Part shown: positions 2,955-55,374 of the stretch, one piece after another
Numbering within the stretch: the first letter of the stretch is position 1
How the letters are laid out: every line of letters starts with the position of its first letter
From: Chromatiaceae bacterium
Lineage (GTDB): Bacteria > Pseudomonadota > Gammaproteobacteria > Chromatiales > Chromatiaceae
NCBI GenBank assembly: GCA_026984455.1
Contig: JALSSC010000020.1
Location: forward strand, 1-64,000
Reading direction: 5' to 3'
Length of the DNA stretch: 64,000 nt
Made by a program: the position numbers and the translations under genes
The notes under the pieces: generated by a model
Database searches by the model: none
Told to the model about the DNA's origin: nothing
What the model saw: only the letters and a program-made list of their open reading frames with translations

Positions 2955-4262
2955 ATGCCGGAAAGGGCGCAGATGTTCGAAGGCAAGCGGATTGCGTTCG
3001 TCTCCACGCGCATCGCGGGGACCGACGGGGTCTCTCTGGAGATTGCCAAGTGGGCCCGGGTCCTGGAAGGCCTGGGGATCGAATGCCGCTACGTCGCCGG
3101 CGAATGCGACCGGCCTGCGGCGGACAGCGCGGTGATCGAGGGCGCCCACTTTCAACATGACGAGATCGCCGATATCGGCGTTCGGGCCTTCCGTCCAGGG
3201 CCGCGGCCTCCCGCCCTCACCGAGGACATCGAGCGGTGGGCCCGGCGCCTGCGGGGGCACCTGCGCGAGGCCCTCGGCGATCTGGGTGCCGACGCGGTGA
3301 TCGTGGAGAACGCCCTCACCATCCCCATGCATATCCCCTTGGGGCTCGCCCTGGTGCAGGTCCTTCAGGAGACCCGGTTGGGTTGCATCGCCCACCATCA
3401 CGACTTCCACTGGGAGCGGGCGCGATTCCAGTCGAGTTGTGTGGAAGACTATCTGCGCTATGCCTTTCCCCCGGCCCTGGGTTCCATCCAACACGTGACC
3501 ATCAACCGGGTCGCGGCCGAGGAGTTTGCCCGGCGCACCGGCCTTCACTGTCGGGTGGTGCCCAACGTCATGGACTTCGGCCATCCCCCATCCCCGCCGG
3601 ATGCCTATGCCCAGGAGTTGCGCCGGGCCCTTGGCATAGGCGAGGGCGATCTGCTCATTCTGCAACCCACCCGGGTGGTGGCGCGCAAGGGGATCGAGCA
3701 CGCGGTGGAGCTGGCCCGACGCCTGAAGGACCGCGGAGCGAGGCTGGTCATCACCCACCGCGCCGGCGATGAAGGCGCGAGCTATGCCCATTTCCTCGGC
3801 CTGTTCTCCGATCTCATGGGCGTGGACCTCGTCTACGCCACGCCCTGGATTGCCGAGCGGCGTGGCACGGGGGCCGACGGCCGGCCCCTGTTCACCCTGG
3901 AGGATGCCTACATGGCCGCCGATCTGGTGACCTATCCTTCAGAGAACGAGGGCTTCGGCAACGCCTTCCTGGAGGCCGTCTACTATCGCCAGCCCGTGGT
4001 CTGCAAGCGTTATCCCATCTTTCGCAGCGACATCGAACCCTGTGGGTTTCGGGTGATCACCTTCGACGACTATCTCACCCAGGGCACCCTGGAGGCGGTG
4101 GAGGGACTGTTCAACCGGCCCGGGCGGCGTCAGTCCATGGTGGAGCACAACTATCAGGTCGCCGAGCGTTGTTTCAGCTACCAGGTATTGGAGGAGGAAC
4201 TACGGCCCATGTTGCGGCGGGCGTTCTTCTTCGGCGGCCGTGACCGGGGGGGGTCGCAGTAG
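2955..4262 (+). CDS. GT4-family glycosyltransferase
   Basis: The 435-residue protein has a GT-B fold pattern. The N-terminal Rossmann domain begins KRIAFVSTRIAGTDGVSLE, the middle contains HHHDFHWER, and the C-terminal donor site contains EGFGNAFLEA near residue 330 with its conserved glutamates. GT4 enzymes transfer sugars from NDP-sugars with retention. Similarity to glucosylglycerate-type compatible-solute glycosyltransferases is possible but unproven. The ATG at 2955 is preferred because GGAAGGGGGG lies 6 nt upstream; an ATG at 2934 lacks this. The stop codon (TAG) falls within a repeat element at 4254, so the native C terminus may have been altered. Confidence 0.8.
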   Translation: MPERAQMFEGKRIAFVSTRIAGTDGVSLEIAKWARVLEGLGIECRYVAGECDRPAADSAVIEGAHFQHDEIADIGVRAFRPGPRPPALTEDIERWARRLRGHLREALGDLGADAVIVENALTIPMHIPLGLALVQVLQETRLGCIAHHHDFHWERARFQSSCVEDYLRYAFPPALGSIQHVTINRVAAEEFARRTGLHCRVVPNVMDFGHPPSPPDAYAQELRRALGIGEGDLLILQPTRVVARKGIEHAVELARRLKDRGARLVITHRAGDEGASYAHFLGLFSDLMGVDLVYATPWIAERRGTGADGRPLFTLEDAYMAADLVTYPSENEGFGNAFLEAVYYRQPVVCKRYPIFRSDIEPCGFRVITFDDYLTQGTLEAVEGLFNRPGRRQSMVEHNYQVAERCFSYQVLEEELRPMLRRAFFFGGRDRGGSQ

Positions 4263-4326
4263 CGGGGAGTGGCACAGGGAAGTGCCGTTTACGGACCGAA
4301 GGACGGAAATATTCACGTATCTACGG
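4254..4326 (-). repeat. Partial copy of dispersed MITE-like repeat (copy C)
   Basis: This stretch matches, in reverse orientation, the left half of the intact element at 55191-55374. The match includes the blocks GGAGTGGCACAGGGAAGTGC, TACGGACCGAA and GGAAATATT. It lacks the other terminal repeat. It begins on the last codons of the GT4 gene, and the remaining 170 bp before panD hold no gene that I can support. Confidence 0.7.
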
Positions 4327-43451: not shown

Positions 43452-43615
43452 GGTACGAATATAAATCCATACCCACCTTACTGCGGCCGCCCCTCACACC
43501 CCTGGGTGGTGTGGCGATTGTTCGCCATAGTCCACGCGATGACTCGCTCCCGCGCCTTGTCCAGGGGCACGAGGAACACCCTCGAAAAACGAAATATTTC
43601 CGTGCGACGGGTATA
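43452..43615 (+). repeat. Dispersed MITE-like repeat (copy A)
   Basis: From ACTGCGGCCGCCCCT (43480) to the right terminal repeat CGTGCGACGGGTATA (43601-43615), this tracks the element at 55261-55374. It has about 22 extra bp in the middle. The left end is degraded to GTACGAATAT. Orientation matches the 55-kb copy. It sits between the tyrA end and the PIN remnant. Confidence 0.75.
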
Positions 43616-48646: not shown

Positions 48647-48731
48647 TGGTGCCGATGGCCGGAGTCGAACCGGCACGGCTTGCGCCACTGCCCCCTCAAG
48701 ACAGCGTGTCTACCAATTCCACCACATCGGC
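48647..48731 (-). tRNA. tRNA-Leu (anticodon GAG)
   Basis: The acceptor stem GCCGATG pairs with CATCGGC, and the 3' CCA is encoded. The TTCGACTC T loop (T54-A58 pattern), a long variable arm and a 5-bp anticodon stem CTGTC/GGCAG around the loop TTGAGGG are present. The anticodon is GAG (reads CUC/CUU). Class II size of 85 nt fits leucine. It sits 20 nt after secG, the usual gammaproteobacterial linkage. Confidence 0.95.
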
Positions 48732-52116: not shown

Positions 52117-52364
52117 TATACTCGCCGCACGTGAATATGTCGTGTTGCGAGGGGCGGCCCAGGGCTCCGTCATCTAACCGTCCCTCTGCCAGTGGCCTTC
52201 CCTGAAAAACGCCGTGAATACCTCCCTGTAGGCTTGACTGCGGCATCCCTGCCGCAGACATTTTCAGGGAAGGCCACTGGCGCGGTTTTCAATGACTTGA
52301 GTGGTTGGATGACGTGGTCCTGGGGCGGCCGCAGTAGCGAGATATTCACGTGCCACGGGTGTAT
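52117..52364. repeat. Inverted-repeat MITE-like element with long arms (copy D), carrying a nested insertion
   Basis: Left arm 52117-52179 begins TATACTCGCCGCACGTGAAT. Right arm 52303-52364, read on the other strand, begins CATACACCCGTGGCACGTGA and tracks the left arm to GTCATC(T/C)AACC. Together the arms pair over about 60 bp with gaps. GCACGTGAATAT is shared exactly. The middle (52189-52280) is a different palindromic element. This copy lies 41 bp upstream of trpB2. Confidence 0.7.
52189..52280. repeat. 92-bp palindromic element nested in copy D
   Basis: A perfect 20-bp inverted repeat, CCAGTGGCCTTCCCTGAAAA (52189-52208) and its complement (52261-52280), encloses a second 8-bp hairpin CTGCGGCA/TGCCGCAG (52238-52257). 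It resembles short dispersed palindromes I associate with other gammaproteobacterial genomes, though I cannot confirm copies here. No coding capacity. Confidence 0.75.
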
Positions 52365-55040: not shown

Positions 55041-55190
55041 CGGATATCCGTCAGACCCGGAATCTGCATTTCAGGGACACGGTCCCGCCCCCAGGGTGTC
55101 CTTGTCTCTGCCTGCCATGGCCCCCTATGACGCGTCGTGCTGCCCGGCCCCTGGGCGCGAACGAACGCAACTCCCTGTGCCACGGGTTTA

Positions 55191-55374
55191 TATACCCGTC
55201 GCACGCAAATATTTCCGTTCTTCGGTCCGTAGACGGCACTTCCCTGTGCCACTCCTCGCCACTGCGGCCGCCCCTCGCGCCCCTGGGCGGCGTGGCGATT
55301 GCTCGCTTCCGCGCCTTGCCCAAGGGCACGAGGAACACCCTCGAAAAACCAAATATTCACGTGCGACGGGTATA
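55191..55374 (+). repeat. Dispersed MITE-like element, best-preserved copy (copy B)
   Basis: Terminal inverted repeats of 24 bp (55191-55214 and 55351-55374) match at 22 positions. They begin TATACCCGTCGCACG and end CGTGCGACGGGTATA. The 184-bp element has no ORF and a GC-rich middle (ACTGCGGCCGCCCCT). TA bases at both ends suit a TA target-site element. It lies between uup and a coiled-coil gene; its right end forms TATAAT. The rest of the 448-bp gap holds no gene. Confidence 0.85.

Follow-up and report, generated by a model that had tools for sequence, protein, structure and literature searches.

An ERIC-like hairpin MITE with a conserved core in the Chromatiaceae

Introduction

ERIC elements, also known as IRU or RU-1, have been in use for strain typing for decades; we know of no mechanism of ERIC movement, nor of a reason for which its structure has been kept. 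The ERIC consensus is 127 bp long, with TATACCC...GACGGGTATA ends (PMC2759123, Table 1a); its hosts are the Enterobacteriaceae and Vibrionaceae according to a 2024 review (PMC10969869), and effects on mRNA stability have been reported for ERIC in Yersinia (PMC2229807). Yersinia is also the host of the YPAL (RU-2) hairpin repeats of ~168 bp (PMC2759123, Table 1b). The Correia (NEMIS) elements of Neisseria have 24-26 bp terminal inverted repeats (TIRs) starting with TATA, a TA target, long and short forms, and hairpin transcripts (PMC2229807, PMC2649163). The RUP elements of Streptococcus pneumoniae are short, target TA and are present in many copies (PMC2229807), and the MITE of Thiomargarita nelsonii dsrA, in a group I intron, has TATAG termini, a long hairpin and many intergenic copies (PMC4853749).

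The element described here lies in a window of 64,000 nucleotides (the whole stretch of DNA that was analysed) from a genome of the family Chromatiaceae (2,828,167 bases in 79 contigs, 94% complete, with several contigs ending inside repeats). It has the generic properties of a MITE: it is short, is bounded by terminal inverted repeats, encodes no transposase and is present in many copies. A preliminary description made from the sequence of the window had already recognized it as MITE-like. The feature that was overlooked, and that is more interesting than MITE status, is a conserved hairpin core, through which it is linked with other elements throughout the class Gammaproteobacteria and probably with ERIC.

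The element and its copies in the window

The inverted ends of the element, TATACCCGTCGCACGCAAATATTT and TATACCCGTCGCACGTGAATATTT, both have TATA at their edges, and the sequence agrees with the preliminary description of 24-bp ends, identical to each other at 22 positions and with TA outermost (Table 1). The absence of an open reading frame is likewise borne out: there is no gene in the element, and no transposase reading frame fits inside its 184 bp. This copy, which folds at -117 kcal/mol (z -9.8), differs from the family's standard form in being a 206-type copy minus the 22-bp apical loop. The related copies that had been noticed elsewhere in the window are also there, one of the four as a possible copy; the core-only covariance model R2 (see below) matches only the two window copies that retain the core.

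Table 1. Coordinates of the element, its copies and other features in the window
Feature	Position	Strand	Basis
Hairpin MITE, 206-type with apical deletion	55191..55374	minus (structured core strand)	Sequence, genome BLAST, covariance model match, folding
Left terminal inverted repeat; outer TA is the target duplication	55191..55214	+	219 genomic matches to the end motif
Optional arm module, ~42 bp; in one arm only, the side varying among 206-type copies	55213..55258	+	Alignment of 206-type copies
CACGC, counterpart of AAC(G/A)C, 3' side of internal loop	55290..55294	-	
Deletion point of the 22-bp apical stem-loop, lost between short repeats of GCGAG	55301..55302	-	Comparison with full copies
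AAGGC, 5' side of conserved internal loop	55313..55317	-	(Nearly) invariant in core alignment A2
Right terminal inverted repeat	55351..55374	-	22/24 match to left end
Possible decayed copy adjoining the element	55043..55190	-	Weak covariance model match, E=0.004
Copy with an internal deletion, split by an unrelated MITE	52117..52363	+	Covariance model
Second copy, 3' arm decayed	43468..43615	-	Covariance models R1 (E=2e-26) and R2 (E=1.4e-10)
Fragment with arm module	4247..4313	-	BLAST, 91% over 67 bp
Second MITE (other sites: L022, L033, L083, L152-L157)	52158..52325		
tRNA gene	48650..48731	-	Sole Rfam match in the window at the gathering threshold

The second MITE, which splits one copy of the first, is ~164 bp long, and at least 32 sites carry it at 99-100% identity. 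It is bounded by CAGGACCACGTCATC / GATGACGGAGCCCTG and has target duplications of ~10 bp. Many contigs end in it, and for this reason, at such identity, it looks recently active; its ends resemble those of the ISAs1 family.

Copy number and genomic setting

BLAST with the element returns 77 matching pieces in its own genome, so that further copies exist, as its dispersal in the window had suggested. The end motif TATACCCGTCGCACG (the end of the element is also written as TACCCGTCGCAC) is matched 219 times (105 + 114) with at most 2 mismatches, in comparison with 5 (3 + 2) for the reversed control, which puts the family at ~100 copies in this genome. Most copies have one of two lengths; among the full copies collected, ~20 are 164 bp long and a similar number 205-207 bp. 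Addition of a 42-bp arm module to the 164-bp form gives the 206-bp form, the module lying on one side in 19 copies and on the other side in 9. Identity between copies ranges from 98.8% for the closest pairs down to ~75% for the most divergent, a span that argues for a long-lived family. Of the active or recently active non-autonomous element that was originally proposed, the high copy number and the non-autonomy stand; recent activity does so only in part, since the same span of identities speaks of a long history, and the family is perhaps recently active.

By a crude gene call, ~45 of 57 copies lie between genes. Their orientation with respect to the genes shows no preference, with 24 tandem, 11 divergent and 7 convergent settings. 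RPE-like in-frame insertion into proteins was considered and rejected: the net insertions, 162 and 204 bp, are divisible by three, yet the copies are mostly intergenic. Spread by plasmids or viruses was also set aside, plasmid and viral searches with the element having given no matches. A 36-bp copy (L074, 2081-2116) is almost just the two terminal repeats. A REP-like palindrome, CCCGTAGGGCGGGAAAGCGATAGCGCATCCCGCC, lies near or inside damaged copies of the element (L086, ~560-606; L091, ~1575-1620 and 2005-2051).

Insertion at TA and the search for an autonomous partner

The flanks of the copies are mutually unrelated, save in one segmental cluster (L055/L063/L091) and at sites of second-MITE insertion; segmental duplication, the alternative to insertion that the preliminary description had named, accounts for copies in that cluster only. 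The copies show no target duplication beyond the terminal TATA, but their outer bases are AT-rich. The informative site is in a relative, G082, in which one copy (L251) sits within another repeat that has three unoccupied paralogues (L250, L266 and L288; G082/G083). The unoccupied paralogues read ..G-TA-A.. and the occupied one ..GA-TA[element]TA-AA.., the left flank differing by one base. Two adjacent copies in tandem, moreover, have one TA in common. The empty paralogues and this tandem pair with its single TA support insertion at TA with duplication of the TA, in keeping with the TA edges given in the preliminary description. Congeneric empty sites were also sought: the genus of the own genome is represented by one genome, and comparison of G082 with G083 stretches gave one shared site and none empty. 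The repeat family that hosts the TA-element insertion, GTAACTACTCAGC...GCTGAGTAGTTAC, is found in G082/G083 at L250 11275-11396, L266 1-127 and L288 648-825.

A TA (CTAG) target is what an IS630/Tc1-derived MITE would have; the cognate IS630 DDE_3 transposase domain (PF13358) is absent from the own assembly of 79 contigs and 94% completeness. Single ends followed inward led to no autonomous element among the 100 of 219 end matches listed, nor in the fetched loci. The absence from the own assembly carries little weight, given a listing of 100 out of 219 end matches and the breaks in the assembly at repeats: with several of the 79 contigs ending inside repeats, high-copy IS elements may have escaped assembly. 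The absence from three complete genomes of genus g24 is stronger: pairs of ends with these genomes' own TIR enclose neither an autonomous element nor a transposase. The transposase gene with the same termini, for which the preliminary description had advised a search, is thus not found in three complete related genomes.

Relatives across the Chromatiaceae and Gammaproteobacteria

An exact-match search of named genomes locates the end motif, as a C/T variant, in Candidatus Thiosymbion of the family Chromatiaceae, and the genome search gives the own genome the same family label. The Thiosymbion copies are ~70% identical to those of the own genome and their length is still near 164 bp. Covariance model R1, built from both sets of copies, matches 98 of 210 genomes of the family in 37 of 61 genera, some single weak matches possibly being unrelated hairpins; the matches number 143 in G082 and 106 in G032. 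In most of the R1 matches inspected, an internal loop lies 57-60 nt from each end. The terminal repeats of these matches vary by lineage (TATACTCGTCGC, TATACCGAGCGCAC, TAGGGGGYGTTCTCAAT, TAGGGCYCGCGCAAGAAT and others), and so do the arms of the element, unlike the internal loop. Several related lineages have CTAG at the element edges.

The core-only model R2 (E <= 1e-4) reaches further, with matches in 119 of 369 gammaproteobacterial genomes; the 250 genomes of the class without a match serve as its specificity control. In the lineages of L190, L225, L227 and L228, the same core is found inside longer, differently ended repeats, GGACGGGG...CCCCGTAGCG.

A hairpin core conserved on one strand

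The 164-bp consensus forms one long hairpin at -118.9 kcal/mol, compared with -58 for shuffled sequences (z -14). In core alignment A2, which comprises 25 elements from ~20 lineages, the internal loop, 5'-AAGGC / 5'-AAC(G/A)C, hardly varies, whereas in 21 of the 25 core pairs both partners have changed in a compensatory manner. The core covariation score is 0.71, against 0.23 for shuffled alignments and no more than 0.17 when the pairings are slid. Such controls err somewhat on the favourable side, the structure having come from the same alignment and the members having been found by a structure model, but the margin is large.

Non-Watson-Crick pairs on the core strand are predominantly G-U (54, with 10 A-C): the lean is to G-U in 21 sequences and to A-C in none of them, with strand orientation for this count fixed by the motif rather than by stability. 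The copies of the own genome lean likewise (150 G-U to 65 A-C), and of 65 copies 62 fold more stably on the core strand, the remaining 3 having been mis-oriented. The excess of G-U over A-C pairs argues that the fold of one strand has been selected. What is selected is most likely a predicted RNA fold in read-through transcripts; single-stranded DNA would equally generate a strand bias, through G-T pairs. The bacterial families of Rfam do not match the element; two microRNA matches to hairpins lie below the threshold.

Mode of spread and the meaning of the core

The facts about insertion and about the core are best explained, we believe with a good measure of confidence, by a MITE that inserts at and duplicates TA, is mobilised in trans, and carries a single-strand hairpin core that is under selection. 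A Tc1/mariner-IS630-type transposase, suggested by the TA and CTAG targets, would act on the terminal repeats in trans, presumably by cut-and-paste, with insertion at the TA dinucleotide and duplication of the TA. One strand would fold into the long hairpin, and selection would act on the central part of this hairpin in single-stranded nucleic acid, in all likelihood read-through RNA. A conserved protein, of the host or of the mobilisation machinery, is predicted to recognize the fold; recognition may then alter either the spread of the element or, as ERIC reportedly does in Yersinia, how stable neighbouring mRNAs are.

An ordinary IS-derived MITE, that is, an internally deleted IS whose hairpin results from its symmetric ends alone and whose core is without function, would have just the terminal repeats, TA target, lack of an open reading frame and intergenic location that are typical of MITEs. 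Recognition by a transposase alone, however, predicts the opposite of what is found, since it is the terminal repeats that vary and the core loop that is constant; strong covariation inside the core and the strand-specificity of the G-U/A-C bias also argue against such an origin, which we consider unlikely. Marginally less probable again is a single-strand DNA hairpin serving as the substrate of a strand-specific recombinase, with the terminal repeats secondary: the strand bias and internal loops do recall hairpins that are read as single-stranded DNA (attC sites, REP/RAYT), but the TA duplication and the symmetry of the TIRs, which are edged by TA or CTAG, better suit a double-strand transposase, and single-strand insertion of the IS200/IS605 type gives, to our knowledge, no target duplication. 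It is highly improbable that the family is a dispersed non-coding RNA gene or a transcription terminator amplified for its function. A stable intergenic hairpin with a conserved loop is what such a gene would look like, but the copies have no preferred orientation relative to genes (and no convergent bias, on which account a terminator role was rejected), no Rfam bacterial family matches, and the elements insert at TA and side by side.

Comparison with ERIC and other known elements

The preferred reading, a TA-inserting MITE with a selected core, finds partial counterparts in several described systems. Correia elements share TATA-starting TIRs, the TA target and the existence of long and short forms; their TIR begins TATAG..., different from the sequence of the present TIR. 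RUP is similarly short, TA-targeting and present in many copies, with the difference that a cognate IS, IS630-Spn1, has been proposed for it, whereas none was found here. The Thiomargarita nelsonii dsrA MITE is, by its description, alike in its long hairpin, its intergenic copies and its host, a sulfur gammaproteobacterium, and differs by its group I intron. YPAL resembles the present element in consisting of hairpin repeats of ~168 bp, but its published sequence has no TATA ends and, by eye, no AAGGC/AACGC loop.

ERIC comes closest: it has the TATACCC / GACGGGTATA ends, the TA duplication, the single long stem-loop, the mostly intergenic location and the lack of a known transposase. The ERIC consensus (PMC2759123) also contains the exact AAGGC/AACGC loop that is found in most members of the present family, flanked by a 13-bp outer and a 3-bp inner arm; the chance of such an arrangement in one random 127-bp element is ~1e-5. 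Global alignment of the element to the ERIC consensus exceeds shuffles, with z 7.1 when the element is in its core orientation and z 3.5 when it is reversed. The differences are those of length (127 bp as against 164/206 bp), of the apical part, and of the distance of the loop from the ends (27/28 nt in ERIC and 57/57 nt here), and identity to the ERIC consensus is below the level of the ERIC family. The element is kept apart from ERIC proper because neither R1 nor R2 recovers the actual E. coli ERIC copies, whose loops have drifted (on the ERIC of L188, R1 scores 8.4 bits, within background, and R2 gives no match).

Membership of the element in ERIC is accordingly a strong lead, and the comparison of sequences suggests that it is probably related to ERIC and probably works like it. 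More tentatively, and with doubt slightly outweighing belief, ERIC and the present repeats might constitute one gammaproteobacterial hairpin-MITE superfamily, defined by a strand-specific core with an invariant loop rather than by its terminal repeats. The loop would be read by a predicted conserved factor, and the core would persist while terminal repeats, and hence the mobilising transposases, were swapped. A related group that reaches ~100 copies in a sulfur-bacterial genome provides comparative data for ERIC-like elements, and the loop, kept in roughly a third of the sampled gammaproteobacterial genomes, offers a bait for its predicted recognition protein. The best reading of the element is that of an ERIC-like orphan hairpin MITE.
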